Source: Yinghuangia seranimata (GTDB taxonomy: Bacteria > Actinomycetota > Actinomycetes > Streptomycetales > Streptomycetaceae). Taken from it: DNA of 64,000 nt. The notes below the pieces were generated by a model. The model was not told the origin of the DNA and did no database searches. It was given only the letters and a program-made list of their open reading frames with translations. The number at the start of each line of letters is the position of its first letter. Positions within the stretch are counted from its first letter, which is position 1. The position numbers and the translations under genes are program-made. The stretch lies in the NCBI RefSeq assembly GCF_029953285.1, contig NZ_JASAOI010000042.1, forward strand, positions 62,001-126,000, in the 5' to 3' direction. This document shows positions 28,799 to 46,786 of this stretch, one piece after another.

Positions 28799-31700
28799 GT
28801 GCAGCAGGACACGGGGCGGGTCGAACGGCCCGACGAGGACACCTTCGAGATGCCGGACGCCTGGCGGAAGAAGGCCCAGCCGCGGCGCGGCGGTGTGGTG
28901 CGCAAGCCCGCGAAGCCGCTCAAGAACGCGGCGTCGCTGGTCGACGCGAAGCTGTTCTCCGGCCGGGAGCGGATCTCCCAGCTCCTGGACCACCCCCGCA
29001 GCCACCCGGACGTCGTCGCCGCCGCCCGCGCGCACCTGGACGGCGACGCGAACCCGCTGGGCGCGGCGGCGGTCGCGCAGATGGCGCCGATCCAGACCCA
29101 CGTCCACCTGCCGTACGTCGACGTCTGGGTCGCCGAGCGCGGACTCGCCTTCGCCGCCTGCGCGGTCGTCGAGCTGTACGACACCCATGTCGGCTTCGAG
29201 TCCGGCACCGGGCGCGGCGACAGCATCTCCTGGCTCGACCGTGTCGAGGAGCCGCACCACGCCGTTCGGATGCACTCCGGCGTCACGCGCGACGACGCAA
29301 GCCGGGTTCGGGCGCTGCTGGCCGCGGCCGACCAGCAGACCTACGACGCGGTCGTCGGCGCTTTGGCCGCGCACCGCGGCACGCGACGCCGCCGCGTGGT
29401 GGCGTCATACCTGGTTCCCACCGAGCGTGACTGGCTCGAGGAGTGCCTCGAGGCCGCGGTCCCGGACGCCGGGGACGCCCGGTTCCGCCACATGCTCCTG
29501 TGCTCGCTCAGCGACCCCGTCCAGCTGTCCTTCGCCGACGGGGACGGGCGCTTCGGCTGGAACGGCGCGGAGCCGGACGTCATCGGGGCGCTCGCGGACG
29601 GCGTCGGCCCGGCCTTCGCCGGCCTGTTCGCGCACGAGCTGACGAGCCGGCACCTCGGCTCGCAGGCCCGCAAGCAGTACACCGGCATCCTCGCCGAACT
29701 CCCCACCGACGAGGCGTTCACGCTGCTCCTCGGGCAGATCGAGGACCGGCACGGGCAGGCCGGGCTGCAGACGGCCGCCCGGCGTTCGCCGGTGCGTGCC
29801 CTCCGGCTGCTCGCGCCCGCGGCTTCGGGCACCGGGAAGCCGGCGGCCATCGCGCGGCAGATGCTGACGGCGCATGTGGCGGCGTATCGCGCGCTGGTCG
29901 AGGACGTCCTGCCGGAACTCGACGCGTCCGTCGTTGCCGTGGTCGCGCCCGTGCTGGGGGCGACGCGCCGCGACCCCGCCGCCCCCGCCGACGCGCTGCC
30001 CACCGTGCTCGTCGACCCGCCGTGGCTGCGCGACCGTTCGCGCGTCGACCCGAAGGTGGTGACCGGGCTCGTGCCGCCCGCCGTCGAGCGGGTCGACTGG
30101 CGGGAGGGCGAACAGGCCCGCTGGGCCGAGCCGGTGCCGTGGCTCGACCAGATCAGGGCCGAGCCCGAGTGGGTCGACCTGCTGCGCGACGGCACACTGC
30201 CGCCGGACCGGGCGGTGGCGCTGTTCATGACCGGCCGACCCGAGGACTGGCTCGCCGACGTCGCCGCGTGGAAGCCCGCGCACCAGTGGGGACTGCGGCG
30301 CGCGTTCAAGCCGTTCGTCGCCCGCTTCGGGACGGCCGGGATCGCGCCCGTCCTGCGCCTGGCGGCCGCGCATCCGTCCGACTTCGACCACCTGATCGAC
30401 CCCATGCTGAGCCTGGGCGCCGCGCGCCTCGCCGCCACGTGGCAGTTGCGCGGGCAGGTGTTGCAGCGCACCAGCGAGGCCTGGTTGAAGCGCCACGGCG
30501 CCGACGCGGCACGGCTGTTGGTTCCGGACGCGGTGGGCAGGCCGGGCACCCCGCGGCGGGCCGCCGAGCGCGCCCTGAGGCTGCTCGCGGCGCTGCACGG
30601 CGAGGAGACGGTCCGCTCCGCCGCCGCCGAGTACGGGCCGGAGGCCTCGGAGGCCATCGGCGACCTGTTCTCGTCCGATCCGCTCGTCGCCGCGCTCCCC
30701 GACACCGTGCCCGCACTGCCCGACTGGGCCGACCCCGCCGCACTCCCCCAGATCCGGCTGCGCGACGGCTCGGGCATGCTCCCGGACGAGGCGACCGCGC
30801 ACGTGATGACGATGCTGGCGATCAGCCCGCCCGGCATGCCGTATCCCTGCCTGTATCCGGTCAAGGAGGCCTGCACACCGGACAGCCTGGCGGATTTCGG
30901 GTGGCAGCTGTTCGAGGCCTGGCGGCTGGCCGGCATGCCGAGCAAGGAGGCGTGGCCGCTGCCCGCGCTCGGGGTGCTCGGCGACGACGAGACGGTGCGC
31001 CGCCTCGACCCGGTCGTCCGGGCCTGGCCGGGCGAAGGCGGGCACGCGCGCGCCGTCGACGGGCTGGGCGTCCTCGCGGCGATCGGCAGCGACGTCGCCC
31101 TGATGCACCTTCACCGCATCGGGCAGCGCGTGAAGTTCAAGGCGCTGAAGGAGAGCGCCCAGGCCATGATCTCCGAGGTGGCGCGCGGGCTCGGGCTCTC
31201 CGACGAGCAGCTCGCCGACCGGCTCGTGCCGGACTTCGGGCTGGACGCGTCCGGTGGCACGGTCGTCGACTACGGCACGCGGACGTTCACGGTGCGCTTC
31301 GACGAACAGCTCAAGCCCTACGTCCTCGACGAGGACGGCAAGCGGCGGAAGGACCTGCCTGCGCCGGGCGCACGGGACGACGCCGAGCTGGCGCCCGCCG
31401 AACGCAAGCGCTACGCGGCCCTGAAGAAGGACGTCCGCACGGCCGCGGCCGACACACTCCTCCGTTTGGAAGGCGCGATGGTTTCGCAACGTGCCTGGAG
31501 TGTAAGGGAGTTCGAGACGCTGCTCGTCCAGCACCCGCTGGTGACACATGTCGCGAAGCGGCTGGTCTGGATCGCGGAGACGGACGACGCGACGGTGGGT
31601 TTCCGGGTCGCGGAGGACAACACGTACGCCGACCACGTCGACGATCCGGTGGAGCTGGCCGAGGGCGCGACGGTACGCGTCGCCCACCCGCTGCACCTCG

Positions 31701-32170: not shown

Positions 32171-32194
32171 CCTGTCACCCGCGGTCGCTACCGT
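32167..32194 (+). promoter_or_regulatory. Candidate internal promoter of DUF4132 copy 2
   Basis: CTGACC (32167-32172) and TACCGT (32189-32194) are separated by 16 nt. The -35 overlaps the stop codon of copy 1. The same arrangement recurs before copy 3 with CTGACG and TACTGT, keeping the TAxxxT signature although the bases differ. Confidence 0.4.
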
Positions 32195-32201
32195 TTCGCC
32201 G

Positions 32202-32221
32202 CCGACCGGACAACCGGTCGG
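32202..32221. promoter_or_regulatory. Conserved spacer hairpin CCGACCGG-ACAA-CCGGTCGG
   Basis: Perfect 8-bp stem with an ACAA loop, 28 nt before the GTG of copy 2. The counterpart before copy 3 (35382-35401) keeps the loop and the stem, with one A-to-G change that yields a G.U pair. Downstream of the likely transcription start, so it may act in the leader RNA. There is no U-tract. Confidence 0.5.
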
Positions 32222-32248
32222 CGGCCTTCCACCAGGGACGGGGTAGTT

Positions 32249-35200
32249 GTGAGCGGTGCGGGAGATCTCGTGCGACCGGACGAGGACACGTTCGTGCTGC
32301 CGGAGGCATGGCGGCGCAGGGTGCACCCGCGGCGCGGGGGATCGCCGGTACCGGCGCCGTCGAGGGTCGTCGACAAGGCGGTGGGGGTGGACCTGGGTGG
32401 GCCGGACGACCCGGCTGCGGCGGCCCGGCTCGCCGTAGGAACGGATCTCGCCCACAGGGTCGTCGCCGACGCGTGGGTGGCACGCCACGGGTTGGTGTTC
32501 GCCGCGCAGGCGGCGGTGGAGCGGTTCAAGCGGAACGAGGACGCGCGCACGGCCCTCGACCGTATCCGGGCGCTGCTCGTCGCAGCCGACGACGAGGTGT
32601 ATGCGGGGACGATCAAGGCACTGGCTCCGTTGCGGGAGGGCCGGAAACGTCGTCTCGCCGTCAGCTACCTGCTGCCGACCGAAACCCTGTGGGCGGCCGA
32701 ATGCGCCGCGGAAGCACCCGTCCTGCATTGGAGCAACGCCGCACAGCGCAGCATGCTTCTGTGCTCTCTGAGCACCGCCGAACACTTCGAGCCGCTTCGC
32801 CACGACCACAGGCCGTACGGGTTCTGGACGCTCGACATCGTGGCGACGCTCTGCGACGGCGCCGGCGACAACTGGCTGTCGGTCATCGACAACGAACTCC
32901 AGGGCACGCGCTGGTACGACATCCGGGCCCTCAAGCTGTTCGCGACCGGAATGGCGGAACTGCCCACGGACGCGGCGTTCGAGATGCTGCTCACCCACAT
33001 CGAGAAGCAGCACGTCGTCGCGTCCCTCCACGAAGCGGCACGCAACTTCCCGCGCCGAGCCCTGCGCCTGCTGGGCGCGGCGGCGCTGGGCACCGGAAAG
33101 CCGGCTGCGCTCGCACGCACGCTCCTGCAGGCCCATGTCGCGGCCCACCGCGACCTTGTGAGGAACGAACTCCCCTCGCTGGCAGCCGGGATCGCGGCCT
33201 TGGTGACGCCTGTGCTGAACACGGGGCAGCGGGGCCCCGAGGCACCCGCCGAGGCGCTGCCCGCAGCCCTGGTTTCGCCGCCCTGGACGCGGAACGTGAA
33301 GCGCGGGCCGGATTTCGCGCCGCTCGACCTCACGGCGCCGCCGCTCTGCCACCTGTCGTGGCTGCCCGGAGAGCGTGAGACGTGGGCCGCCGACACGCCC
33401 TGGTACGCACAACGGCCGCTCCCCGCCGACTGGCGCGACCGGCTTACTCGAGGAACCCTCGACGACAGCGAGAAGTACCGGGTGTTCGTCACCGAGCCGG
33501 CCGACGAGGTCGCCCACCTGGTCGCCAAATGGCGGCCGTCCATCTACATGCACGGGAATGAGGTCAAGTCGCTGCTCGGCCGCCTCGACCACGCCGCACT
33601 CCCCTTGCTGGTGCGTCTCGTCGGCACCGATCCGTACACCTACACGGACCTCCTCCATCCTGTCGTCACACTCGACGTCGCACGCAGCATGGCCCAGCGA
33701 CTGACCCGAAAGTCCGTCGGCGACCGCGCTCCCGGCAAGGCCTGGCTCACCCGCCACGCGCCGGACGCAGCACGCCTGTTGGTCCCCGATGCCGTCGGCA
33801 AGGCGAAGGTCCTGGCACGCGCCGCGGGCCTCGCCCTCCGCTACCTCGCCGAGACCCAGGGCCCCGACCTCGTGACGTCCGCGGCCGGCGAGTACGGGCC
33901 CGCGGCGGTCGCCGCCGTCACGGCCCTGCTCGGCGCGGACCCGCTCCTCGTCGCGCTGCCCGGCAAACTACCCGCAATCCCGACCTGGGCCGCCCCCAGT
34001 GCTCTCGAGCAGGTGCAGCTCCGCGCCGGCGCGGGCGGCCTGCCCGACGAGGCCGTCCGGCACCTGCTGACCGTCCTCGCGATCTCCGAGCCCGACAGTC
34101 CTTATCCGCTGCTCGCCGATGTGCAGGCAGCGTGCACCCCGGAGAGCTTGGCCGCCTTCGCGTGGTCGCTGTTCGAGGCGTGGCGGCTGGCCGGCATGCC
34201 CGCGAAGGACAGTTGGGTGCTGACGGCCCTCGGCACGCTCGGCGACGACGACGTCGTCCGCAAGCTCGACCCGATCATCCGGGCGTGGCCGGGCGAGAAC
34301 GCGCACAAGCGCGCGGTCGAGGGACTCTCGGTGCTCGCCGCGATCGGAACCGAGACCGCGCTCATGCACCTGCACGGCATATCCCAGCGGGTGAAGTTCA
34401 CCGCCCTGAAGACCCGCGCTCAGGAGATGATCACCGAGGTCGCCGACGGGCTCGGTCTGACGGCCGACCAACTGGCCGACCGGCTCGTGCCGGACTTCGG
34501 GCTCGACGCGTCCGGCACGACGGTCGTCGACTACGGGCCGCGGAGATTCACGGTCGGCTTCGACGAGCAGCTCAAGCCGTACGTCGTCGACGAAGTCGGC
34601 AAACGGCGCAAGGATCTGCCCGCGCCGGGCGCGCGCGATGACGCGGAGCTGGCACCCGCCGAACGCAAGCGCTACGCGGCCCTGAAGAAGGACGTGCGCG
34701 GGGCCGCGGCAAGCGCGTTGCTCCGGCTCGAAACCGCGATGGTCACGCAACGGACCTGGAGTGTGCCGGAGTTCGAGACGCTGTTCGTCCGGCACCCACT
34801 GTTGACACACGTGGCGAAGCGGCTGGTCTGGCTCGCCGAAACCGGTGACGGGGTGGCGGCGTTCCGGATCGCCGAGGACGGCACGTACGCGGATCGCTCC
34901 GACGATGCGATGGAACCGCCGGAGGACGCAGCGGTACGCGTCGCCCACCCGCTGCACCTCGGCGACGAGCTCGGCGCGTGGGCGGAGGTGTTCGCCGACT
35001 ACGAGATCCTCCAGCCGTTCGCGCAACTGGGACGTCCCTGCTACGCGGTGGACGCCCGCGTGGAGGATTTCGAGGGCTTCACGGTGCCCACCGGCCGAGT
35101 CCTGAGCCTCGAACGGCGCGGCTGGCAGCGCGGGGCGCCGCAGGACGCGGGCTTCCAGGGCTGGATAGACCGGTCCCTCGACGGTGGTTGCTCGGTCACG

Positions 35201-35350
35201 ATCTCGCTGGATCCGGGGATCCGGGTCGGGGACGCAGGCGGGACCCAGACGCTGCGGCACGTCTCGTTGAGCGGCGGCGACGTTGATCCCGTGCTGTTCA
35301 GCGAGGTGCTGTCGGACCTGCACGAGTTGACCAGGGGCGCGACGCGCTGA
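32249..35350 (+). CDS. DUF4132 (MolR/YehI-like) protein, copy 2 of 3
   Basis: 1033 residues from the GTG at 32249 (VSGAGDLVRPDEDTFVLPEA). The first ~100 residues are about 70% identical by eye to copy 3 and lower to copy 1. The middle 100-700 is divergent helical repeat. The DUF4132 core starts near residue 740 (RLVPDFGLDASGTTVVDYGP at about 745), followed by the near-invariant 72-residue block. The C-terminal region ends PVLFSEVLSDLHELTRGATR, parallel to copy 1 (PVLLSEVLRDLEELTAGATR). No membrane segments. The divergence pattern (conserved ends, variable centre) suggests different binding specificities on a shared scaffold; the partner is unknown. Confidence 0.85.
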   Translation: MSGAGDLVRPDEDTFVLPEAWRRRVHPRRGGSPVPAPSRVVDKAVGVDLGGPDDPAAAARLAVGTDLAHRVVADAWVARHGLVFAAQAAVERFKRNEDARTALDRIRALLVAADDEVYAGTIKALAPLREGRKRRLAVSYLLPTETLWAAECAAEAPVLHWSNAAQRSMLLCSLSTAEHFEPLRHDHRPYGFWTLDIVATLCDGAGDNWLSVIDNELQGTRWYDIRALKLFATGMAELPTDAAFEMLLTHIEKQHVVASLHEAARNFPRRALRLLGAAALGTGKPAALARTLLQAHVAAHRDLVRNELPSLAAGIAALVTPVLNTGQRGPEAPAEALPAALVSPPWTRNVKRGPDFAPLDLTAPPLCHLSWLPGERETWAADTPWYAQRPLPADWRDRLTRGTLDDSEKYRVFVTEPADEVAHLVAKWRPSIYMHGNEVKSLLGRLDHAALPLLVRLVGTDPYTYTDLLHPVVTLDVARSMAQRLTRKSVGDRAPGKAWLTRHAPDAARLLVPDAVGKAKVLARAAGLALRYLAETQGPDLVTSAAGEYGPAAVAAVTALLGADPLLVALPGKLPAIPTWAAPSALEQVQLRAGAGGLPDEAVRHLLTVLAISEPDSPYPLLADVQAACTPESLAAFAWSLFEAWRLAGMPAKDSWVLTALGTLGDDDVVRKLDPIIRAWPGENAHKRAVEGLSVLAAIGTETALMHLHGISQRVKFTALKTRAQEMITEVADGLGLTADQLADRLVPDFGLDASGTTVVDYGPRRFTVGFDEQLKPYVVDEVGKRRKDLPAPGARDDAELAPAERKRYAALKKDVRGAAASALLRLETAMVTQRTWSVPEFETLFVRHPLLTHVAKRLVWLAETGDGVAAFRIAEDGTYADRSDDAMEPPEDAAVRVAHPLHLGDELGAWAEVFADYEILQPFAQLGRPCYAVDARVEDFEGFTVPTGRVLSLERRGWQRGAPQDAGFQGWIDRSLDGGCSVTISLDPGIRVGDAGGTQTLRHVSLSGGDVDPVLFSEVLSDLHELTRGATR

Positions 35351-35402
35351 CGTGTCACCGACGGTCGCTACTGTTTCGCCGCCGGCCGGACAACCGGTCG
35401 GA
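35341..35402. repeat. DUF4132 spacer repeat, copy B
   Basis: Second copy of the repeat at 32161-32222, including the 3' codons of copy 2 and the promoter-like and hairpin elements in front of copy 3 (promoter hexamers CTGACG at 35347 and TACTGT at 35369; hairpin 35382-35401). Confidence 0.7.
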
Positions 35403-35426
35403 AGCCTGCTGAGGAGTGGAGAGTCC

Positions 35427-38400
35427 GTGAGCGGCACCGGGGAGCTCGTGCGACCGGACGAGGACACGTTCGTGCTGCCGGAAGCGTGGCGGCGCAAGCT
35501 GCACCCTCGGCGCGGGGGATCGCCGGTCCCGGCTCCGACGAAGGTCGTCGACAAGGCGGTGGGGACGGACCTGGGTGGGCCGGACCTCACCACGGCAGTC
35601 GCCCGTGCCAACGGGTCGAGACTCCGTCGCGAGGTGGTCGCGGACGCATGGGTCGCCCGGCACGGCCTCGTCTTCGCAGTGCGGGCCGCTGTGGAGTTGT
35701 TCTCGCTGGACGAGCAGTCGTATCCCGCCCTCGACCGCCTGCGAGCCCTGCTCGTCGCGGCCGACGACGAGATTTACGCATCGGTGGTCGAGGCGCTGGC
35801 CCCGATGCGCGAAGGCGAGCGGCGACGCACCGCCGTCAGCTACCTCGTGCCGACCGAGACAGCGTGGGTGAACGAGTGCGTTGACGAGGCGCGCCAAACG
35901 TCGTTCATGGACGACACGTTGCGCAGCATGCTGTTGTGCTCGCTCGACCGGGCGAGCCAGGTTGAACCGCTGCGCGGCAAGAGCATCCTCTACGGCGGAT
36001 GGCCGCTGGAGCTGGTCATGACCCTGTGCGAAAGCCTTGGTGACGCCTGGCTTCCGTTGATGCAAGAGCAGGTTGACTACACGCCGTACAACACGGGGCA
36101 GACCTGGCGAAACTGGATGACGGGCCTGCCCGAAGTACCCACCGACGCGGCCTTCCTCATGCTCCTCACTCACATCGAGCGCGCCGAAGCACAGCCCGCT
36201 CTGGTCGCCGCGGCCCGCAACTTCCCCCGCCGCGCCCTGCGCCTGCTGGGCGCGGCGTCGCTGGGCACCGGAAAGCCGGCCTCGCTCGCACGAACGCTCC
36301 TGCAGGCCCACGTCGCGGCCCACCGCGACGTCGCGGAGGCGGCGCTCCCTGAACTGCCTTCGGGCGTCGCGGCGCTCGTCGCGCCGGTGCTGGACACCGG
36401 CCGGCGCGGCCCCGAGGCGTCCGTGGCCGCGTTGCCGGAGGCCCTGGTCTCGCCGCCGTGGGCCCGTCCCGGCGCGGGGAAGCCCGCGTACACGCCGCTG
36501 AGCCTCACGCCACCGGCCCTGGCCTACCTCGCCTGGCAGCCCGGAGAACGCGAGGAGTGGGCGGCGATGCGGCGGCCGTACAGCATCGGCTATCGGTCGG
36601 AGCCCCGCTGGGACGACGTGGATTCGCTCGACGACGACCAGAAGTACGACCTGTTCGTTCGCGAGCCGGTCGAGAAGGTCGCGTACCACGTCGCCGCCTG
36701 GCGTCCGGGAGACGATTACCACCCGGCCGAGATGTTCCAGTGCATGGTCGGCCGCTTCGGGGACACGGCGATCCCGATGGCGCTCCACCTGATCCGCCGC
36801 AGCGCACGCTACGAACCGGTCTTGGCCCCCCTCGTCACCCTCGACGTCGCGCGCCGTATGGCACAGCGGCTGAGCGCGAAGACGGCCGACGTGCGGGCCT
36901 CCGGCAAGGCATGGCTCGACCGCCACGCCCACGATGCCGTGGCGCTGTTGATCCCCGACGCGGTCGGCAAACCGAACGCCGACGCGCACGCCGCAGGTAA
37001 CGCTCTCCGATACCTCGCCGAATCGCAGGGCCCCGACCTCGTCAAGGCCGCTGCCGCCGAGTACGGGCCCGAGGCCGTCGACGCCATCGCGGCCGTGCTC
37101 GCCGCCGACCCGCTGGTGATCGCCCTCCCGGCCCGGATGCCCAAGCTTCCGTCCTGGGCCGCGCCTCACAGTCTCGCCCAGGTGCAGCTTCGCGACGGCG
37201 CGGGCGGGCTGCCCGAGGAGGCCGTCCGGCACCTGCTGACGACGCTTGCCGTCTCGGAGCCGGGGAATCCGTACCCGACGCTCGCCGAGATCCAGGAGGC
37301 GTGCACCCCCGACAGCCTCGCCGCTTTCGCCTGGTCGCTGTTCGAGGCCTGGCGGCTCTCCGGTATGCCCGCCAAGGAGAGTTGGGCGCTGACCGCCCTG
37401 GGCACGCTCGGCGACGACGAGGTCGTCCGCAGGCTCGACCCGATCATCCGCGCGTGGCCGGGCGAAGGCGCCCACAAGCGCGCGGTGGACGGGCTCTCGG
37501 TCCTCGCCGCGATCGGGACCGACATCGCGCTCATGCACCTGCACGGCATATCCCAGCGGGTGAAGTTCACCGCCCTCAAGGCCCGCGCCAAGGAGCTGAT
37601 CGCCGAGGTCGCCGACGGGCTGGGTCTGACCGCCGACCAGCTCGCGGACCGACTCGTGCCCGACTTCGGGCTGGACGCGTCCGGCAGCACCACCGTCGAC
37701 TACGGCACGCGCCGGTTCACCGTCGGTTTCGACGAGCAGCTCAAGCCGTACGTCCTCGACCAGGACGGCAAGCGCCGCAAGGACCTGCCCGCGCCCGGTG
37801 CCCGTGACGACGCCGAGCTCGCGCCCGCCGAACGCAAGCGCTACGCCACGCTGAAGAAGGACGTCCGCACCGCCGCGTCCGACACGATCCGCCGCCTCGA
37901 AGCCGCGATGGTCACCGGACGGACGTGGACCGCCGCGGAGTTCCGGGACCTGCTGGTCGGGCATCCGCTCGTCGGGCACCTGACGCGGCGGCTGGTCTGG
38001 CTGGCCGAGACGGACGGCGGCCCGGTGACCTTCCGTGTCGCGGAGGACCGCACGTACGCGGACGGCGCCGACGACGCGCTGACCGTCCCCGACACGGCGG
38101 CCGTCCGGATCCCCCACCCGCTCGAACTGGGCGACGGACTGGCGGTCTGGTCGGAGGTGTTCGCCGACTACGAGATCCTCCAGCCGTTCGCGCAGCTGGG
38201 CCGGCAGGTGTTCCGGCTGACCGACGAGGAGGCGGCCGCGGAGCGGCTGACCCGGTTCGAGGGCGTCGCCGTGCCGACGCGTGCTGTTCTCGGCCTCGTG
38301 CACCGCGGCTGGGAACGGGGACCGGCGCTGGACAACGGCGTCGAGCAGTGGATCGCCCGCCGGCTCACCGACGACCTGTACGTGGTCGGGACGTACGAAC

Positions 38401-38588
38401 AGGGCATCTCGACAGGCTTCGTCGAGGAGTTCGACGGCGACCAGACCTTCGAGGGCGTGTGGGTGGCCACCCAGCCGGCCGAGTACTTCCGGGCCTGGGA
38501 GAAGCGCCGCCCCTCGGACCTGCCGCCCGTCGCCGCCAGTGAGATCATCGCGGACCTGACCTGGCTCACCAGCCAGGCCGGCCGCTGA
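35427..38588 (+). CDS. DUF4132 (MolR/YehI-like) protein, copy 3 of 3
   Basis: 1053 residues from the GTG at 35427, which has GAGGAG about 10 nt upstream; an ATG-like alternative at 35352 would translate the spacer. Strongly related to copy 2 through the first 100 residues (LVRPDEDTFVLPEAWRRKLH) and across the conserved block beginning at residue 743. Its last 150 residues differ from the other two: LVHRGWERGPALDNGVEQW replaces LERRGWQRGAPQDAGFQGW, and it ends EIIADLTWLTSQAGR. The loss of the common C-terminus suggests recombination or drift. Only 25 nt separate it from the MoxR gene. Confidence 0.85.
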   Translation: MSGTGELVRPDEDTFVLPEAWRRKLHPRRGGSPVPAPTKVVDKAVGTDLGGPDLTTAVARANGSRLRREVVADAWVARHGLVFAVRAAVELFSLDEQSYPALDRLRALLVAADDEIYASVVEALAPMREGERRRTAVSYLVPTETAWVNECVDEARQTSFMDDTLRSMLLCSLDRASQVEPLRGKSILYGGWPLELVMTLCESLGDAWLPLMQEQVDYTPYNTGQTWRNWMTGLPEVPTDAAFLMLLTHIERAEAQPALVAAARNFPRRALRLLGAASLGTGKPASLARTLLQAHVAAHRDVAEAALPELPSGVAALVAPVLDTGRRGPEASVAALPEALVSPPWARPGAGKPAYTPLSLTPPALAYLAWQPGEREEWAAMRRPYSIGYRSEPRWDDVDSLDDDQKYDLFVREPVEKVAYHVAAWRPGDDYHPAEMFQCMVGRFGDTAIPMALHLIRRSARYEPVLAPLVTLDVARRMAQRLSAKTADVRASGKAWLDRHAHDAVALLIPDAVGKPNADAHAAGNALRYLAESQGPDLVKAAAAEYGPEAVDAIAAVLAADPLVIALPARMPKLPSWAAPHSLAQVQLRDGAGGLPEEAVRHLLTTLAVSEPGNPYPTLAEIQEACTPDSLAAFAWSLFEAWRLSGMPAKESWALTALGTLGDDEVVRRLDPIIRAWPGEGAHKRAVDGLSVLAAIGTDIALMHLHGISQRVKFTALKARAKELIAEVADGLGLTADQLADRLVPDFGLDASGSTTVDYGTRRFTVGFDEQLKPYVLDQDGKRRKDLPAPGARDDAELAPAERKRYATLKKDVRTAASDTIRRLEAAMVTGRTWTAAEFRDLLVGHPLVGHLTRRLVWLAETDGGPVTFRVAEDRTYADGADDALTVPDTAAVRIPHPLELGDGLAVWSEVFADYEILQPFAQLGRQVFRLTDEEAAAERLTRFEGVAVPTRAVLGLVHRGWERGPALDNGVEQWIARRLTDDLYVVGTYEQGISTGFVEEFDGDQTFEGVWVATQPAEYFRAWEKRRPSDLPPVAASEIIADLTWLTSQAGR

Positions 38589-38613
38589 CCCGCCCGAGAC
38601 CAGGACGGCATCC

Positions 38614-39741
38614 ATGGACATCGTCACCACCACCGCGCCCGACGAGGAACTCCAGCGGCCGCCCGCCGAGATCCGGTACGCCGCCGAGCTGGCCGCGCTG
38701 CGCGAGGCCGACGACGCGCCGCGTCCGCCCGGCTGGTTCCTGAGCCCGCGCGCGGCGCGCAGGTTCATCGTCGGCGACCCGGCCGCGGGCGTCAGCCGCA
38801 AGTTCGTCGGCGACGCGTCGCTCGTCGACCGGGCGCTGGTCACGCTCGCCACCAACCGAGGGCTGATGCTGGTCGGCGAGCCGGGCACCGCGAAGTCGCT
38901 GCTGTCGGAGCTGATCGCGGCGGCGGTCAGCGGGGTGTCGACGCTGACCATCCAGGGCGGCGCCGCGACCACCGAGGACCAGATCAAGTACTCGTGGAAC
39001 TACGCGCTGCTGGTGTCCGAAGGGCCGTCGCCGCGCTCGCTCGTGCCCGCGCCGATGCTGCGCGGTATGAGCGAGGGGCGGATCGTCCGGTTCGAGGAGA
39101 TCACCCGGTGCCCGCTGGAGGTCCAGGACTCGTTGCTGTCGCTGCTGTCCGAGCGGGTCGTGGCCATCCCCGAACTGGGCGGCGAGGACGCCCGCGCGGG
39201 CATGGTGTTCGCGCGGCAGGGCTTCAACGTCATCGCGACGGCCAACACACGTGACCGCGGCGTCAACGAGATGAGCGCGGCGCTGAAGCGGCGGTTCAAC
39301 TTCGAAACTGTGTTCCCGATCGCCGACGCGCGGATCGAGCTCGACCTGGTCGAGGCCGAGGCGACCGCGCTGCTGCGCCGCTCCGGCGTTGAGGCCGCAC
39401 CGGACCGGGACGTCCTCGAGGTGCTGGTCACCACGTTCCGCGAACTGCGGGACGGCACCACCGCCGACGGGGCCGTGATGGACCGGCTGACGTCGGTCAT
39501 GAGCACCGCCGAGGCGGTGTCGGTCGCGCACGCCGTCGGGCTGCGCGGGTGGTTCCAGCGCGGCGAACCCGGCAGCGCCGCCGACGTCGTCGCGTGCCTC
39601 GCCGGGACCGCGGCGAAGGACAGCCCCGAGGACCTGGCCCGGCTGCGCCGCTACCTCGAACAGCGGGTCGGACGGCGCAGCGGAGCGCAGTGGCGGGCCA
39701 TGCACGCCGCCCGGCACCTGCTCGCCGGCGCGGAGGCCTGA
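38614..39741 (+). CDS. MoxR-type AAA+ ATPase (YehL-like)
   Basis: 375 residues. Walker A is GEPGTAKS at residues 88-95. The Walker B region reads IVRFEEITRCPLEVQDSLLS, with an FEE in place of the common DE. Sensor 1 is NVIATANTRDRGVNEM, with the arginine finger segment SAALKRRFNFETV. The loop SERVVAIPELGGEDARAG is characteristic of MoxR proteins. MoxR ATPases work with vWA proteins as chaperones that load metals or remodel complexes. In this operon the vWA partner is two genes downstream. It matches the YehL position in the E. coli yeh cluster. Seven nt separate its stop from the DUF5682 start. Confidence 0.9.
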   Translation: MDIVTTTAPDEELQRPPAEIRYAAELAALREADDAPRPPGWFLSPRAARRFIVGDPAAGVSRKFVGDASLVDRALVTLATNRGLMLVGEPGTAKSLLSELIAAAVSGVSTLTIQGGAATTEDQIKYSWNYALLVSEGPSPRSLVPAPMLRGMSEGRIVRFEEITRCPLEVQDSLLSLLSERVVAIPELGGEDARAGMVFARQGFNVIATANTRDRGVNEMSAALKRRFNFETVFPIADARIELDLVEAEATALLRRSGVEAAPDRDVLEVLVTTFRELRDGTTADGAVMDRLTSVMSTAEAVSVAHAVGLRGWFQRGEPGSAADVVACLAGTAAKDSPEDLARLRRYLEQRVGRRSGAQWRAMHAARHLLAGAEA

Positions 39742-39747
39742 CCGGCC

Positions 39748-42700
39748 GTGCCCGCGACGTTCCTCGGGGTCCGGCACCACTCCCCCGCGTGTGCCCGGCT
39801 GGTCGCCCGCGCCATCGACGAGCTGCGGCCCGCGTACGTGCTCGTCGAGGGCCCGGCCGACATGAACGGCCGGCTCGACGAGCTGCTGCTCGGGCACGAG
39901 CTGCCGGTCGCCGTGTTCAGCCACTACCGGGACACGGAACGGGTGTTCAGCTCGTGGACGCCGTTGTGCGACTACTCGCCGGAGTGGGTCGCGCTGTATC
40001 GCGGGCGGCAGGCCGGGGCCGAGACCCTGTTCATCGACCTGCCGGCGTGGCATGCGGCGTTCACCGCCGAGAACCGGGCCAACCGCTACGCCGACGCGGA
40101 GGCACGCTACGCGGAGGCGATGGCACGGCTGTTCGACCGGTTCGAGGTCGGCGACTCCGACGCCCTGTGGGACCGGCTGTTCGAGGCCGCGCCGGACGAC
40201 GGGCTCGCCGAGCGGCTCAACGCCTACTTCGCCCTCATGCGCGGCGACACCGAGGCCGAGGACGGGGACCGGGCCCGCGAGGAGTACATGGCGGCGTGGG
40301 TGCGCGAGGCGGTGTCCCGCGCCGGTGACCGGCATGTGCTGGTGGTGACGGGCGGGTTCCACCAGCCCGCATTGCGGGCGCTGGCCTCCGCATCGGCGAC
40401 GAACAAGGGCTGGCCGGCCGTCCCGGAGCCCCCGGCGGACGCGATCGGCGGCAGCTTCCTCGTGCCGTACTCCTTCGCGAGGCTGGACTCGTTCACCGGC
40501 TACCAGTCCGGCATGCCGTCGCCGGCGTTCTACCAGGACGTCTGGGAACACGGCGCGGAGGAAGCCGGCAAGCGCCTGGCCCAAAGCGTGACGGCCCGCC
40601 TGCGAGGACGCGGCCAACCGGTGTCGACAGCCGACCTGATCGCCGCCCGCACGCTGACCGACGGCCTGGCCGCCCTGCGCGGCAACGCGACCCCGACCCG
40701 CACCGACGTCCTGGACGCCCTGGCCACGACCCTGATCAGCGATGCTCTAGACCAGCCCCTCCCCTGGACCCGACGAGGCCCCCTGCTCCCGGGCGCACAC
40801 CCGGCCGTCGTAGAGATGGTCGCAACCGGAACAGGCGAACGGACGGGAAGCCTTCACCCGGACACCCCAGTGCCACCGCTGGTGGTGGACGTAGAGGAAC
40901 GCCTCGCGACACTGGGGGTCGAGCTGACGGCGCCGGTGGAGCTGGACCTGGCGAAGGTGGACCCGTCCGGCGTCGGCGACACGCCAGGCGCGGCGCCGGA
41001 ACTCACCACAGCGCTGCCCCTGAGGGCGGACGCTGCGGCCACATCGACACAGGAATCCGGCCGTCCGCCACTCGCCGAGGCGCAGACCGACGAGCCGGTG
41101 CCCTCCGACGGCGACGCCCCTAGTGCGCCCTCGGGAACGCCGGGAGTCGAAACTGCCGTCGGCGGTCTCCGAAGCGAGTCACTGGAGCCAGGCCAGGTCG
41201 GCGGAGAGCCGATAGAGACCGACACAGCGGACACCCGCCAAGGGGCCGGTTCGCCCGGCCAGCGGCCTCTCGCCACCACCGCGACGAACGTTCCCGTCGC
41301 CCGCGAACCCGCCCCGCCGACCCAAGCGGCACCCACCACGCGCGAGGGAACCCGCTCGTCGGCGCCGTCGGCGGAGCCCGGCCCTACGGTCGGTCTGGCC
41401 CTGCCCGCGCGTCCGCCCGAGTCAGCGGGTCACGGCACCGCCACCGCGTCCCCCGCCACCGACGCGACCTCGCCGTCACCGGGGCCCAGCCCCACGGCCG
41501 GTACGACCCCGCGCGCTGCGCAGCCCACACACCCGACCGAGTCCGCAGGCCACGGTGCCACCGCACCCCCTGCGCGGCCCGATGTCGCCGTCGGCGGCCT
41601 CGTTCCCAGCGAGGCGGACGGCGCTCGCATGCCGAACGCCGCCGGGGCCTTGGGTACTTCAGCCGGCCAGGCCGGCCATGCCGACGGAGAGCCGACAGAG
41701 CCCGGCGCTCAGGGGCTGCTCGTCGAGTCGGGCGGTTCGCCTGCCCACTCTCCGGACGCGGGCGACGTATCGCGGCGTTCTTCCGGGCCCCTGGCCGACA
41801 GCTCCACAGCGCCTTCGGTGGAACCTGCCTCCTCCAGCGGCTCGACGGCGCGGTCGCCCGGCGTCGAATCTGCCGCCAAGTCACTCTCCGCGTCGGACGG
41901 CTTCGTGTCCGCGGCCGTTCCCGCGCATGCACCCGCAGACCCGCGCGACACAGTCGCGATGCCCTCGACCACACCAACCTCCCCGGTCAAGCCCGGCTCA
42001 CCTGCGTCGGGCCTCGTCTCCACGCCCGGACCGCTCGCCGCGTCGGGCGGCTCGCCCACCCTGTCGCCGAACACGCTTGTCCCGTCCGCGCCTTCCTCGT
42101 CGCTCCCCACCCCTCCTCCGTCCCTCGATCTCCTCCGCAGTCGGCTCCTTCACTCGCTCCGTGTCCTCGGCGTTCCCGGGCATCAGCGTGTCGAAGGCTC
42201 GGGGCTGGTCGTGCGTGAGCGTTGGGAGCCGTCCGGTACCGCTGGTCGGGAGGCGGCGCTCGTCGAGGCGGGGGCGTACGGTGCCGGGCTCGACGAGGCC
42301 GTGGCCGCGGTGCTCGACCGGCGGTGTCGTGAGGCCCGGGCCGAACCTCGGGAGCTGGCCGGGGTGTTGCTCGATGCCGTGCAGTGCGGCGTCGGTGCGA
42401 CCGCTGAGCAGGTTGTCACCGCGCTGGCCGAGCAGGTCCGCAGAGTGCGGGACGTCGGAGCCCTCGGCGATGTGCTCGGGGTCGCGCTCGACCTGTGGCG
42501 TCACGACCGGATCTACCACGTCGCCGGCGACCCGATGCTCGCCGCCGTGATCGGGCGCTGCGTCGCGCGCGTGCTGTGGCTCGTCGACGGCGCGCACGGA
42601 GGGCGGGGCGTGGACGCCGCGCGGCTCGGCGCGTTGTGCGGGGTGCGGGACGCGCTGCGGCACGCCCCCGAGGTGCTGCCGGTGCGTCCCGACGCCGTGT

Positions 42701-43176
42701 TGGCCGCCGCGCAGCGCATCGCCGCCGACTCGCGCGCGCCTGCGGATCTGCGCGGTGCGATGACAGGTCTCGCCTGGGTGCTCGGCGATCCCGGCGACGT
42801 CCCGGCCGCGTTGCGCGCCGCGGCCGCGCCGGAGAGCCTCGGGGACTGGCTCGCCGGGCTGTTCGCGCTGGCGCGCCGCGAGGTCGCGGGTGCGGGCGAC
42901 GACGGCGTCCTGCGGGCGTTGGACAGCCTCGTCGCGGCCTTTACGGACGACGACTTCCTCGTCGCGCTGCCCGCGCTGCGCCAGGCGTTCGCGTACTTCC
43001 CCCCGCGCGAGCGCGAGCGGATCGCCGAACGCCTGCTCGCCGCAAGGGCGTTGCGCGGCTCGGCGCGCGGCCTGCTGCGCCTGCCCGCGGATCCGCTGGT
43101 GCTGGCGCGGGCCGCCGCGTTGGAGGCCGATGTGGCGCGCGTACTGGACCGGCACGGACTACGGAGCGGGCAGTGA
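39748..43176 (+). CDS. DUF5682 (YehM-like) protein with long disordered linker
   Basis: 1142 residues from the GTG at 39748. The N-terminal domain (about 1-370) starts FLGVRHHSPACARLVARAID and continues ELRPAYVLVEGPADMN. This G-x-x-H-x-S and L-R-P-x-x-V-x-V-E arrangement resembles the TIKI/TraB/EreA superfamily of possible metal-dependent hydrolases, but that is inference. Residues about 370-790 are a Pro/Ala/Ser/Thr/Gly-rich low-complexity linker with no repeats of fixed length. Residues about 790-1142 are helical (LRSRLLHSLRVLGVPGHQRV onward). E. coli YehM belongs to the same family and lacks most of the linker. It overlaps the vWA gene by 4 nt. Confidence 0.85.
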   Translation: MPATFLGVRHHSPACARLVARAIDELRPAYVLVEGPADMNGRLDELLLGHELPVAVFSHYRDTERVFSSWTPLCDYSPEWVALYRGRQAGAETLFIDLPAWHAAFTAENRANRYADAEARYAEAMARLFDRFEVGDSDALWDRLFEAAPDDGLAERLNAYFALMRGDTEAEDGDRAREEYMAAWVREAVSRAGDRHVLVVTGGFHQPALRALASASATNKGWPAVPEPPADAIGGSFLVPYSFARLDSFTGYQSGMPSPAFYQDVWEHGAEEAGKRLAQSVTARLRGRGQPVSTADLIAARTLTDGLAALRGNATPTRTDVLDALATTLISDALDQPLPWTRRGPLLPGAHPAVVEMVATGTGERTGSLHPDTPVPPLVVDVEERLATLGVELTAPVELDLAKVDPSGVGDTPGAAPELTTALPLRADAAATSTQESGRPPLAEAQTDEPVPSDGDAPSAPSGTPGVETAVGGLRSESLEPGQVGGEPIETDTADTRQGAGSPGQRPLATTATNVPVAREPAPPTQAAPTTREGTRSSAPSAEPGPTVGLALPARPPESAGHGTATASPATDATSPSPGPSPTAGTTPRAAQPTHPTESAGHGATAPPARPDVAVGGLVPSEADGARMPNAAGALGTSAGQAGHADGEPTEPGAQGLLVESGGSPAHSPDAGDVSRRSSGPLADSSTAPSVEPASSSGSTARSPGVESAAKSLSASDGFVSAAVPAHAPADPRDTVAMPSTTPTSPVKPGSPASGLVSTPGPLAASGGSPTLSPNTLVPSAPSSSLPTPPPSLDLLRSRLLHSLRVLGVPGHQRVEGSGLVVRERWEPSGTAGREAALVEAGAYGAGLDEAVAAVLDRRCREARAEPRELAGVLLDAVQCGVGATAEQVVTALAEQVRRVRDVGALGDVLGVALDLWRHDRIYHVAGDPMLAAVIGRCVARVLWLVDGAHGGRGVDAARLGALCGVRDALRHAPEVLPVRPDAVLAAAQRIAADSRAPADLRGAMTGLAWVLGDPGDVPAALRAAAAPESLGDWLAGLFALARREVAGAGDDGVLRALDSLVAAFTDDDFLVALPALRQAFAYFPPRERERIAERLLAARALRGSARGLLRLPADPLVLARAAALEADVARVLDRHGLRSGQ

Positions 43177-44360
43177 CCAACCCCCAACCGACCCCTGACC
43201 CGGCGTTGGAGCGCTGGCGGCTGATCCTCGGCGCGCCGGCCGAGCGGCACACCTGCGGGCTGTCGGGCGAGGCGGCCGCGCGGGACGCCGCGTTGGAGTG
43301 GCTGTACGGGCGCGACCCGGACGCCGCCCGGCGCGGTGTCCGCGGCGGGCCGGGCACGTCCGGTGCCGCGCGGCCGAAGCCGCTGCACGGGGCCGAACGC
43401 CAGGGCGGCGACTGCCCGTCCGTCGTGAGCCCGGTCGACTGGCTCGACGACGTGCACGCGCTGTTCCCAAAGGAGACCATTGAGCGCCTCGAGCGGGACG
43501 CCGTCGAGCGGTACGGCATCGAGGAGATCGTCACCGACCCCGACGTCCTGGCCCGCGTCGAGCCGAACCCCGCCCTGCTGCGGGCCGTGCTTCGAACCAA
43601 GCACCTGATGAACCCCCAGGTGCTGGCGCTGGCGCGGCGGATCGTCGAGCAGGTGGTGCGCGACCTGCTCGCCCGCCTGCGGCCCGACGTACGCCGCGCC
43701 CTGACGGGCACCCGAACCCGTCGGCCGAGCCGGATCCCGCTCGCGCGCGACTTCGACTTCAAGGGCACGATCCGCGCCAACCTCGCGCACTACCAGCCCG
43801 CCGAGCGCCGCCTGTTGATCGAACGGCCGAAGTTCCACGCGCGGACGCAGCGGCACCTGTCGCAGTGGCAGCTGATCCTCGTCGTCGACCAGTCCGGGTC
43901 GATGGTCGGATCGGTGATCCACTCGGCGGTGACGGCGGCGTGCCTGTGGGGGCTGCCGGGGCTGCGCACGCACCTGCTGGCCTTCGACACGTCGGTGGTC
44001 GACCTGACGAGCGACGTGACGGACCCCGTCGAACTGCTGATGCGCGTACAGCTGGGCGGCGGAACGGACATCGCACGGGCGGTCGACTACGCGGCGAGCC
44101 TGGTCGACAACCCGAGGCGGACGATCGTCGCGGTGATCAGCGACTTCTACGAGGGCGGCGACCCGTACCGGCTCGTGCGCACCGTGCGCGAGTTGGTCGA
44201 CCAGGGCACGACCGTCCTCGGCCTCGCCGCGCTGGACGAGGACGCGAACCCCGACTACGACCGCGAGTTGGCCCAACGGCTGGCGGACGTCGGCGCCCAC
44301 GTAGGCGCAATGACCCCGGGCCGACTGGCGGAGTTCGTCGCAGAACGGATGGGCCGATGA
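43173..44360 (+). CDS. vWA-domain protein, CoxE/YehP-like
   Basis: 395 residues starting at the GTG that overlaps the previous stop. The N-terminal 200 residues are helical (LERDAVERYGIEEIVTDPDV). The vWA domain begins at LILVVDQSGSMVGSVIHSAV: the metal-ion-dependent adhesion site D-x-S-x-S is intact at residue 239. A Thr follows in LGGGTDIARAVDYA and an Asp in VISDFYEGGDPYRLV. vWA proteins are the usual partners of MoxR ATPases, forming a complex that remodels a client. The 4-nt overlaps on both sides imply coupled translation and stoichiometric production with DUF5682 and the SWIM protein. Confidence 0.9.
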   Translation: MTNPQPTPDPALERWRLILGAPAERHTCGLSGEAAARDAALEWLYGRDPDAARRGVRGGPGTSGAARPKPLHGAERQGGDCPSVVSPVDWLDDVHALFPKETIERLERDAVERYGIEEIVTDPDVLARVEPNPALLRAVLRTKHLMNPQVLALARRIVEQVVRDLLARLRPDVRRALTGTRTRRPSRIPLARDFDFKGTIRANLAHYQPAERRLLIERPKFHARTQRHLSQWQLILVVDQSGSMVGSVIHSAVTAACLWGLPGLRTHLLAFDTSVVDLTSDVTDPVELLMRVQLGGGTDIARAVDYAASLVDNPRRTIVAVISDFYEGGDPYRLVRTVRELVDQGTTVLGLAALDEDANPDYDRELAQRLADVGAHVGAMTPGRLAEFVAERMGR

Positions 44361-46786
44361 ACCGCCCGGACCTCCTGGCGCTGACCGCCGACACCCTGGC
44401 GGCCCTCACGAACCGAGGCCTGGTCAAACGCGCCGCCAAGGAGTTGGAGGCGGGCGCCGGGGCCGACGTCACACTGGCGGACGACGGCGCCGTGCGCGGC
44501 GTGTTCGCGGACGGCACGCGCACCGAACTACCGCCGGGCGGCGGTCTGGACACGGCGGTGTGCACGTGCGGCGCGACGGGCGTGTGCCGCCACGTCCTCG
44601 GCGTAGTGCTGGCCTACCAGCGGGCGAACGCCTCCAACGAGACCGGAAACCCGGCTGAGGCCTCGGCTGAGCGGATGGTGCCAACGACCCGCGAAGGCTC
44701 CGCTACGGCCGCGCGCGGACGCACGCCGGCGCCGACGTCCGCCACCGAGGCCGCCGCGTCCGAGGCCAGCCTCAAAACTCCGGTCCGGGACGCCGCACCA
44801 TCTCACCCGGCCCTTGGCAGCGAGGCCGACACACCCGCGTCGGCGGCTCTACCCGACGGATCGGCACTCGCTGTGCCCGGTCGGTCCGCGCCCGCGACGC
44901 GCCGGGTAGGGACGAACTCCACAGCGTCCCCTGCCTCGTCGGCGTCTGGTACGGCGCAGGGGCAGCCCGCAGTGCCACGGCAAGCCACAGCATCGGAGCG
45001 GCCTGTGCCCACCGAGCGCGGTGCAGGCTCGGGCTCCGCCCTGCCGTCGGACCCGACCGACACCGCCGCCGCCACCACGCGGGCCGGCGTCGTCCCCGAT
45101 CCCGCCACCCTTTCCACGCCCGCACACGCCTGGTCGCCCGGCGACGTCCCCGACACCGTCCTCGCCGAGCTCTTCGGCGCCCGCACCCTCACCGACGCTC
45201 GCCGCACCCTCACCCGCGGCTATCGCGCCACGGTGCACCGGCCCGCACCCGGCGATCCGCCTGAGACCTCCGTCGAACTGCCCACCTGTACCGTCCGGTT
45301 CCCCGTTCCCGGTGAGCTCGCCTATGCGCTGACCGACGCGTCGGCTCAGGCGCGGGCGGGGGTCATCGTGTTGGCCGTGTGGGCGTGTCGGGCCGCAGAC
45401 GAGGCCCGGCCCGGTGAAGGCTCCGTGGCATTGGATGTCGGTGGGGCCACTCGGGTGCTCGATCTGGCACCGTTGGGGGCCGTGCTCGGGGAGGTCGACG
45501 CGTTGCTCGTCGACGGGCTCGCTCACGTGGGCCCGGTCGGGCTTGCGACGCTGCGTCGGCATCGGGACGCGCTCGCAGGGGCCGGGTTGCACTGGCCGGC
45601 GGACGCCGTGGGCGAACTCGTCGATCAGGCCGAGGCGTACGCGGAACGCGCGGCGCGGCATCGGCCGGAGCGGTGTGCGGATCTGGTCGCCGAACTGCAC
45701 GCGCGGCGGCGGGCCTCGGCGGGCCCTGACATCTTGGGCGCGCGGGAGGCCGGCGAGACGGCGCTGCGCCGGGTGCGCCTGGTCTCGCTGGGGTGTCGGG
45801 TCGGTGACGGCGGCCGACCGGACGACGAGCGTTCGGTGGAAGTCTACTTCGCGCACCCGTCGGCGGGTGTCGTGCTGGTGTGGCGGCGGGCGTGGCCGAA
45901 CCCGGCTGACCAGCCGCCGCCTGCGGGTCCGGACTTGGCGGCGCGTCGGGTTTTCGGTTCGACGCTCGGCGTGTCGGCCGCCGCGAACATCCTCACCGAA
46001 CGCGCGGTCCGCACCGCGGGCCGGGTGGTCACGATCGGCGCGAGCCGGGTCGCGCCGACGAGCGTCACGCCGTTGAGCGGCCGGTCCTGGGCGGAGCTCC
46101 CTGAGCCTTTGCTGGTCCGGGACTTCACGGCCTGCCGGGATGCGCTCGCCGCGCGTCCGCCCGAGCCGGTGCGGCCGCGGGTGGCGGCGGACGCGGTGCG
46201 GGTCCTGGAGGTGTCCGCGGTCGGTGAGGTCTGGTACGACGCGGCCGCTCAGTGCGTCGAGGCCGAGCTCCACGACGCGCACGGAAACACAGCGCTGCTG
46301 TCCGCGCCGTACAACCCGTACGCGCCCGGCGGTTCGGACGCGTTGGAGGCCGCGCTGCGGGACGGGGACGTGCGCCGGGTCTCGGGCGAGGTCCGAAGGT
46401 CCGGCGGCAGGCTGGTCGTCGACCCGGTCGCGGTCGAGACGGCGCAAGGTGTGCTGGTGCCGGATCTGGCAGCGGGGGTTCCGCGTGCCGCGCCGACGGG
46501 TCCGCCGGTCCGCGCGAGCGACCCGTTGGGCGAGGCGATCGCGGAGGCACGCGCCGTGCTCGCCGAGGCGGCCCGCCAAGGCCTCCGCCACCTCGACGCG
46601 GCGGCGTTGCAGCGCGTGGACGAGGCGGCGGCAGGACTGGCGCGGATCGGCCTGGCGGGTTCGGCCGCGGCCCTGCGCGCGTTCGCCGCGGCGTGGCGGA
46701 CGTCCGGTTACGCCGGCGCTGTTCAGCCCTGGGTCGACGCCCGGCTGCACCTGTGGGTCGCCGCGGAGCTGCACGACGCGGGGTGA
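44357..46786 (+). CDS. SWIM zinc-finger protein (YehQ-like)
   Basis: 809 residues from the ATG overlapping the previous TGA (ATGA). The SWIM finger is at residues about 68-82, VCTCGATGVCRHVLGVVLA, with the C-x-C-x-n-C-x-H ligands complete. Residues about 95-255 are Ala/Thr/Pro/Ser-rich low complexity, as in DUF5682. The C-terminal 550 residues are alpha/beta with a conserved-looking block FPVPGELAYALTDASAQARA and end in helices. SWIM domains bind DNA or proteins. The gene closes the operon, and a convergent GNAT gene follows after 13 nt. Together with the preceding genes this completes a yeh-type set. Confidence 0.88.
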   Translation: MNRPDLLALTADTLAALTNRGLVKRAAKELEAGAGADVTLADDGAVRGVFADGTRTELPPGGGLDTAVCTCGATGVCRHVLGVVLAYQRANASNETGNPAEASAERMVPTTREGSATAARGRTPAPTSATEAAASEASLKTPVRDAAPSHPALGSEADTPASAALPDGSALAVPGRSAPATRRVGTNSTASPASSASGTAQGQPAVPRQATASERPVPTERGAGSGSALPSDPTDTAAATTRAGVVPDPATLSTPAHAWSPGDVPDTVLAELFGARTLTDARRTLTRGYRATVHRPAPGDPPETSVELPTCTVRFPVPGELAYALTDASAQARAGVIVLAVWACRAADEARPGEGSVALDVGGATRVLDLAPLGAVLGEVDALLVDGLAHVGPVGLATLRRHRDALAGAGLHWPADAVGELVDQAEAYAERAARHRPERCADLVAELHARRRASAGPDILGAREAGETALRRVRLVSLGCRVGDGGRPDDERSVEVYFAHPSAGVVLVWRRAWPNPADQPPPAGPDLAARRVFGSTLGVSAAANILTERAVRTAGRVVTIGASRVAPTSVTPLSGRSWAELPEPLLVRDFTACRDALAARPPEPVRPRVAADAVRVLEVSAVGEVWYDAAAQCVEAELHDAHGNTALLSAPYNPYAPGGSDALEAALRDGDVRRVSGEVRRSGGRLVVDPVAVETAQGVLVPDLAAGVPRAAPTGPPVRASDPLGEAIAEARAVLAEAARQGLRHLDAAALQRVDEAAAGLARIGLAGSAAALRAFAAAWRTSGYAGAVQPWVDARLHLWVAAELHDAG

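Follow-up and report, generated by a model that had tools for sequence, protein, structure and literature searches.

A Yeh-type MoxR/vWA operon in Yinghuangia seranimata with candidate DNA damage promoters before its DUF4132 genes

RESULTS

Gene content of the locus

The DNA analyzed, referred to here as the window, is a 64,000-nucleotide stretch of the Yinghuangia seranimata genome (G000:C20:62001-126000; the genome spans 9.8 Mb in 113 contigs). A sequence-only reading had described seven co-directional genes in 18 kb, and open reading frames (ORFs), Pfam and BLAST agreed that positions 28799 to 46786 are filled by seven such genes (Table 1). Of the last four, which it had described as abutting or overlapping by 4 nt, the MoxR and DUF5682 genes are separated by a gap of 6 nt, and the last two junctions are 4-nt overlaps. 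The SWIM-motif protein did not reach the Pfam SWIM model. By sequence, the MoxR protein has a Walker A motif and the vWA protein a MIDAS-like motif; an ATPase and chaperone activity of the pair is putative.

By annotation, the flanking genes are unrelated to the operon: on the left lies an opposite-strand gene of 668 aa without annotation, and on the right lie GNAT, NlpC/P60, isochorismatase, AraC-type and GMC oxidoreductase genes. Elsewhere in the window, an AbiEii-like nucleotidyltransferase gene (23108-23929, minus strand) sits beside a gene without a Pfam match (22045-23028, minus strand), and the two are possibly a type IV toxin-antitoxin pair.

Table 1. Features of the Yeh-type operon and its leaders (window positions unless residues are given)
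Feature	Position	Strand	Evidence and remarks
Promoter-like TGTCCCCCGCTGCCGCTACCGT, upstream of copy 1	28718..28739	+	TGTC-N12-TANNNT; without the canonical RGTG
DUF4132 copy 1	28799..32170	+	PF13569, 194.7 bits; 37% to YehI over 464 columns; start uncertain (28763/28772/28799; ORF opening at 28763)
Promoter-like TGTCACCCGCGGTCGCTACCGT, upstream of copy 2	32173..32194	+	Fits the PafBC variant TGTCAC-10N-TA-3N-T
12-bp hairpin, copy 2 leader	32198..32225	+	Fold of 32195-32248, -32.5 kcal/mol, z -4.41
DUF4132 copy 2	32249..35350	+	PF13569, 175.2 bits; 61.5% to copy 3
Promoter-like TGTCACCGACGGTCGCTACTGT, upstream of copy 3	35353..35374	+	Adjoins the ORF's first GTG (35352), and the copy 3 start at 35427 is therefore favored
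Imperfect version of the copy 2 hairpin, copy 3 leader	35378..35405	+	Fold of 35375-35426, -21.8 kcal/mol, z -1.57
DUF4132 copy 3	35427..38588	+	PF13569, 201.7 bits
HEAT-like alpha-solenoid of copy 3	Residues about 40-740		Predicted model
Conserved C-terminal region of copy 3	Residues about 745-970		Includes PF13569
YehL-type MoxR AAA+ ATPase, AAA_5	38614..39741	+	Pfam; identity to YehL
Walker A GEPGTAKS (MoxR)	38875-38898		Sequence motif
RFEEI (MoxR)	39088-39102		Sequence motif
DUF5682 (YehM) protein	39748..43176	+	PF18934, 319.7 bits; predicted model
CoxE-like vWA protein (YehP)	43173..44360	+	VWA_CoxE PF05762, 193.6 bits
MIDAS-like DQSGS (vWA protein)	43887-43901		Sequence motif
SWIM-motif protein (YehQ)	44357..46786	+	CxC...CxH motif
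CxC...CxH (SWIM-motif protein)	44561-44593		Sequence motif

Relationship to the E. coli yeh operon and conservation of gene order

The MoxR protein was 62.6% identical to E. coli K-12 YehL over 361 columns (YehL being the one MoxR subfamily compared), and the vWA protein was 57.2% identical to K-12 YehP. The DUF5682 protein matched YehM at 41.6% over the N-terminal 413 columns and at 27.8% in a C-terminal piece, the SWIM-motif protein matched YehQ at 42% across 83 columns and, more weakly, in a further piece, and the three DUF4132 proteins matched YehI at 36 to 37% over the C-terminal part. The gene order in K-12 is yehH, yehI, yehK, yehL, yehM, yehP, yehQ, yehH being a broken DUF4132 gene; the order yehI-yehL-yehM-yehP-yehQ given in the sequence-only reading was borne out, apart from its omission of yehH and yehK. 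By sequence and synteny, the locus is a Yeh-type operon with a MoxR/vWA gene set. It shares with the E. coli operon the gene order, five protein families, tandem DUF4132 genes and a damage-type box upstream, but the window has no visible yehK between DUF4132 and MoxR, and Pfam found no WGR domain in the DUF4132 proteins of the window, unlike the WGR-DUF4132 protein annotated in E. coli records.

We know of no DUF4132 or DUF5682 partners of RavA-ViaA or CoxD-CoxE. Like the pair described here, these systems join a MoxR ATPase to a vWA partner, but in the accessible part of PMC3893208 they belong to other MoxR subfamilies with other clients, YehL being one of seven MoxR subfamilies. In a literature search that had most subscription journals outside its scope, we found no published function for a YehL-type operon and no literature on DUF5682 or DUF5691 by name.

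A comparison of gene order with other actinomycetes had been proposed from the sequence alone. We made it in 80 actinomycete loci, the best scoring of at least 562 confirmed MoxR-profile matches, a choice that favors close relatives, and found the MoxR-DUF5682-vWA-SWIM order kept in 68 of the 70 that had enough DNA. Among 61 genomes (the source genome and 60 relatives), 17 encoded a MoxR at 74% identity or above, one of them (G013) in pieces. A DUF4132 gene lay immediately upstream of MoxR in 16 of these 17, the 17th being at a contig edge, which upholds the tight co-occurrence of the two genes. In the G013 locus (L142), the DUF4132, MoxR, DUF5682, vWA and SWIM frames are all in pieces, through either decay or assembly error.

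The source genome has three more YehL-type MoxR genes (G000:C108:157915, C54:121646 and C108:18825), each with a vWA gene nearby and two with a DUF5682 match nearby. In its fourth system, a DUF5691 protein takes the place of DUF4132 (L144:15960-17477, minus strand), as DUF5691 also does in the Deinococcus, Rhizobium and Hymenobacter plasmid operons (L122, L123, L124). The window shares the MoxR-DUF5682-vWA core with the SWIM-DUF5691-MoxR-DUF5682-vWA operons of Deinococcus taeanensis and Hymenobacter, in the latter of which DUF5682 is annotated in pieces, and with the Rhizobium operon, which has no annotated SWIM gene. On an Iodobacter plasmid (L121, 5424-22828), a Yeh operon has transposase genes among its DUF4132 genes and adjoins type I restriction-modification genes.

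Copy number, evolution and predicted structure of DUF4132

The sequence-only reading had singled out the triplication of DUF4132 as special, but 1 to 4 tandem copies occur in the 15 operons of relatives, where we made the count per cluster that it had suggested. Two E. coli strains, ZH193 and TUM1226, likewise have three DUF4132 genes in tandem, ahead of yehK-L-M-P and, as far as the stretch extends, yehQ; this rules out triplication as a novelty. In the 70 loci with 10 kb of upstream DNA, from the best 80 of at least 562, and with adjacency judged by a rule of our own, we counted one adjacent DUF4132 gene in 47, two in 12, three or more in 5 and none in 6; two or more were thus present in 17 of the 70, and the row of five at L016 includes broken reading frames. 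In E. coli, 1604 of 5426 genomes matched at least 80% of the first of the three DUF4132 genes, although in some of them a neighboring copy may have been hit instead, as the best place is at 90% identity or above in only 1138.

In a tree of 107 DUF4132 proteins built by a quick method, the three copies of the window grouped together (SH-aLRT 97), next to a lone DUF4132 protein of the same genome (SH-aLRT 99). Lentzea and another family of the same order (f3) each formed position-specific groups of their own; the copies from E. coli clustered with one another. By this quick tree, tandem expansion happened repeatedly and arose independently in several lineages.

The copies had been described as having conserved ends and variable middles. 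This held in part: residues 41 to 560 are the least alike (38 to 55% pairwise identity) and residues 561 to 970 the most alike (66 to 81%), but the last 83 residues are variable too (28 to 51%). Over the first 40 residues, copies 2 and 3 are 85% alike, and either is 42 to 47% alike to copy 1. Positive selection in the middle segments, a check proposed at the same time, was not found. Nine orthologue pairs, all from f3, the window copies having no close orthologues, gave dN/dS values of 0.19 to 0.46 for the solenoid, 0.11 to 0.33 for the middle and 0.19 to 0.44 for the C-terminal segment, below 0.5 throughout. In the f3 pairs, DUF4132 is under purifying selection, with no diversifying signal at segment resolution. 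The earlier idea of a diversifying recognition component was not supported in the sense of positive selection; what is left of it is a variable HEAT-like solenoid that could bind clients.

The predicted model of copy 3 (mean pLDDT 91.5) begins with an alpha-solenoid and continues into an alpha/beta region. A fold search with DUF4132 returned HEAT/ARM matches, including ATR, importins, CAND1 and condensin, that barely covered the C-terminal region. The best VIA match was to ATR (Z 10.1, rmsd 18.6, 362 aligned), but we claim no kinship of DUF4132 to HEAT/ARM proteins because such Z values are common among helical repeats. The DUF5682 model (mean pLDDT 70.4) has an N-terminal alpha/beta domain, a low-confidence linker (residues 411 to 784) and a C-terminal helical repeat. 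Foldseek gave no match to DUF5682 below an E value of 0.001, and the best VIA match of its N-terminal domain was a Tetrahymena complex IV subunit (8b6h_DQ; Z 9.7, rmsd 4.4, 187 aligned), a chain taken to be TraB-like; the domain may have a TraB/TIKI-like fold. In sequence searches of the PDB, the DUF4132 profile matched nothing at an E value of 1, and the MoxR profile matched midasin chains and one uncharacterized protein. All matches to NCBIfam were weak and fell far short of the cutoff.

Candidate damage promoters in the window

In wild-type Deinococcus radiodurans, mitomycin C upregulates the DUF4132 protein DRA0166 and the WGR protein DR2173, both responses being lost in an irrE mutant, and MolR is stated to be a member of the LexA regulon (accessible parts of PMC8533742). 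Because of these reports, we scanned for DNA damage boxes. The canonical RecA-NDp/PafBC box is TGTCRGTG-N8-TANNNT. In this strict form it is absent from the 64-kb window, but a relaxed box precedes copies 2 and 3, and the skeleton TGTC-N12-TANNNT precedes copy 1 as well. The RGTG that should follow TGTC is missing from all three boxes, which have CCCC, ACCC and ACCG, respectively, at this position. PafBC sites in M. tuberculosis, as given in excerpts of PMC8151990, include TGTCAC-10N-TA-3N-T, a variant fitted by the boxes of copies 2 and 3 but not by that of copy 1 (TGTCCC). Judged from these promoter skeletons, the window operon may be under PafBC control.

The leaders of copies 2 and 3 have in common a GC-rich hairpin directly after the promoter box; that of copy 3 is weak, 10 of 200 shuffles being equally good.

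Conservation of the box before DUF4132 genes

In the best 80 of at least 562 loci, TGTC-N12-TANNNT lay between −750 and +60 of 64 of the 91 testable DUF4132 genes (those with 750 nt of upstream DNA in hand), a count that is partly post hoc because the range was widened to −750 after longer leaders had been seen, with the controls taken over the same range. The TGTCRG form was present in 53 of these 64, and the other 27 genes had no box in the range. By locus, the box was found in 59 of 70 testable, counts that are not independent because many of the positive loci are related. Before the other operon genes of this set, it was found in 0 of 77 DUF5682, 0 of 71 vWA, 0 of 70 SWIM and 8 of 79 MoxR genes, and 68 of the 79 plus-strand matches stood before a DUF4132 gene; the minus strand yielded 13 matches in all 1.55 Mb. 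Controls gave 2/91 on the opposite strand, 161/4000 (4.0%) in random windows of the same loci and 9/1820 (0.5%) in shuffled sequences. Other ranges in the same best 80 loci gave 62 of 98 DUF4132 ORFs (the earlier range, −300 to +600 around the ORF opening) and 32 of 97 DUF4132 genes (the narrower −300 to +60, counted from where the HMM match begins, with 61/4000 random windows).

Operons and stand-alone genes of relatives were new material, tested after the range had been set. Fifteen operons were fetched, one on a contig that starts inside the DUF4132 gene; in all 14 that were testable, the box preceded the first DUF4132 gene and was the sole match on that strand within the fetched DNA. Stand-alone DUF4132 genes form a separate subfamily of about 300 to 470 codons. 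The box was present before 17 of 20 (taken from 22 strong matches in relatives, two at contig ends being omitted), compared to 1 of 20 on the opposite strand, and one of the three genes without it has only 359 nt of upstream DNA.

The box across the source genome

The skeleton matched 115 times in the 9.8-Mb source genome, and a reversed control pattern matched 54 times. Each of the six DUF4132 genes of this genome had a box at a plausible start codon or a short way ahead of one, and recA had a box plus a LexA-type CGAAC-N4-GTTCG. A stricter pattern matched 24 times, versus 13 for its control. It was found at the starts of radA, recD2, dnaX, dgt, an actinobacterial IHF gene and a gene whose product weakly resembles the macrodomain protein DarG (at 28.7 bits, well under the cutoff). 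Other matches, among them those at a sensor kinase gene and TnpB-like genes, had no evident link to repair. The stricter skeleton overlaps the open-frame start of three OrfB/TnpB-like genes (L091, L102 and L103, at G000:C1:254943, C44:102513 and C47:66543).

PafC is encoded in the genome (HTH_PafC match of 100.7 bits at C98:269417). Two further YehL-type systems, B, which holds a stand-alone DUF4132 gene, and C, had a box just before the first gene. In system D (C108, L144), a box precedes an OrfB/TnpB-like remnant; we did not count it as firm because the remnant intervenes and the distance from the box is about 650 nt to DUF5691 and over 6 kb to MoxR.

On this promoter evidence, the actinomycete operon is most likely switched on by damage through RecA-NDp/PafBC-type promoters before its DUF4132 genes. 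RecA-NDp promoters are reported at S. coelicolor recA and at the UV-inducible gene SCO6735 (excerpts of PMC5087735), but, against this reading, the M. smegmatis PafBC motif seemed not to be conserved in S. venezuelae in an initial search (excerpts of PMC9380542). We found no published link of MoxR or DUF4132 to PafBC, again with most subscription journals outside the search; MoxR and PafBC occurred together in one workshop report, whose accessible text has RavA and PafBC in separate talks (PMC6882752).

Damage boxes outside the actinomycetes

Four of four E. coli strains have CTGGATAAAATTACAG, which differs from CTGT-N8-ACAG at one position, starting about 25 nt ahead of the first gene, and molR appears among SOS or LexA-regulated genes in the accessible portions of PMC3978071, PMC11039860 and PMC4576408. 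The E. coli yeh operon thus has a LexA-type box, whereas the window has a PafBC-type box, one before each DUF4132 copy. A comparable case is DRA0165-DRA0166 of D. radiodurans, whose DUF4132 protein is published as a member of the DdrO regulon, under a DNA damage regulator (PMC8533742, in part). The operon of D. taeanensis has a DdrO-like site with 2 mismatches about 35 nt upstream, which counts for little because 2-mismatch sites also occur in the Sinorhizobium and Hymenobacter stretches. An alphaproteobacterial LexA box was absent before the Agrobacterium and Rhizobium plasmid operons; in Sinorhizobium there was an exact match, but about 700 nt from the operon. The IS-interrupted Iodobacter operon had no good damage box before it.

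DISCUSSION

The operon most likely encodes a DNA damage-induced MoxR/vWA remodeling machine of the Yeh type, whose DUF4132 solenoids would select its clients, and we regard this reading as probable. The pathway, which the sequence-only reading had called unknown, is one for which the promoter evidence points to the DNA damage response. RavA-ViaA, CbbQ-CbbO and midasin are established precedents for remodeling by MoxR/vWA-type systems. DNA damage would act through PafBC-type promoters to raise expression of the operon, and by analogy with these precedents the MoxR ring would work with the vWA protein to remodel or assemble a client at the expense of ATP. That client may be picked or scaffolded by the DUF4132 solenoids, extra copies widening the range of clients or raising the dose, and the SWIM protein may bring the machine to DNA or to a partner protein. 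The role would be damage tolerance or, less likely, phage defense.

The last possibility would be a damage-triggered anti-phage or abortive-infection machine in which phage-caused damage induces the operon and the MoxR/vWA ring, with DUF4132, acts against phage or host targets; we consider this unlikely, though it deserves weight. Such a role would suit the patchy presence of the system (a close MoxR in 5 of 37 genomes of its own family and in neither of two congeners) and the occurrence of plasmid-borne operons, in one case next to type I restriction genes, but in E. coli the system is common, a yehF-yehH query having matched in 5369 of 5426 genomes, 3989 of them over at least 80%. Tandem expansion of DUF4132 is recurrent, yet the pairs tested showed no positive selection. 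Other MoxR-vWA systems have been published as conflict systems (PMC7159879, in the part available), whereas none of the seven proteins matched PADLOC at an E value of 0.01 or contained a nuclease, TIR or other effector domain recognized by Pfam. The bpMoxR domain, a criterion for MoxR-vWA ternary conflict systems, scored 23.1 bits, below the cutoff of 27, and, so far as these libraries cover VMAP, no propeller/VMAP third component with linked effectors was found among the seven proteins as a Pfam domain or a PADLOC match.

It is improbable that the locus is a general chaperone or stress operon and that its TGTC-N12-TANNNT boxes are ordinary promoters instead of PafBC targets. The boxes of the window are degenerate at RGTG and the skeleton resembles a −35/−10 layout, but the skeleton occurs only 115 times in 9.8 Mb and is found at recA and radA as well, and TGTCRG is present in 53 of the 64 box-bearing DUF4132 genes of the best 80 of at least 562 loci. 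A role in maturing a metal or molybdenum enzyme, in the manner of CoxD/CoxE and in keeping with the former name molR, is very unlikely indeed. In its favor are the CoxE-family match of the vWA protein (193.6 bits) and a report from 1990 that connects molR with the use of molybdate (cited in the accessible part of PMC8533742); against it are the lack of any molybdenum or CODH gene among the 8 Pfam-matched of 10 neighbors (2 being without a match), the unchanged moeA/moeB on DdrO depletion in Deinococcus (same part of PMC8533742) and damage promoters that would not be expected for such a role.

More tentatively, and with distinctly less confidence than for the damage-induced machine proposed above, we suggest that the Yeh system may be a widespread damage-response effector, a MoxR/vWA machine with HEAT-repeat DUF4132 scaffolds, over which regulators without kinship to one another each gained control (PafBC in actinomycetes, LexA in E. 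coli and DdrO in Deinococcus). The protein complexes that it remodels would sit on damaged DNA or on invading DNA, and its range of targets would grow with tandem expansion of DUF4132. Damage-type promoters across actinomycete families, together with the published LexA and DdrO control, would give this gene cluster a physiological context.
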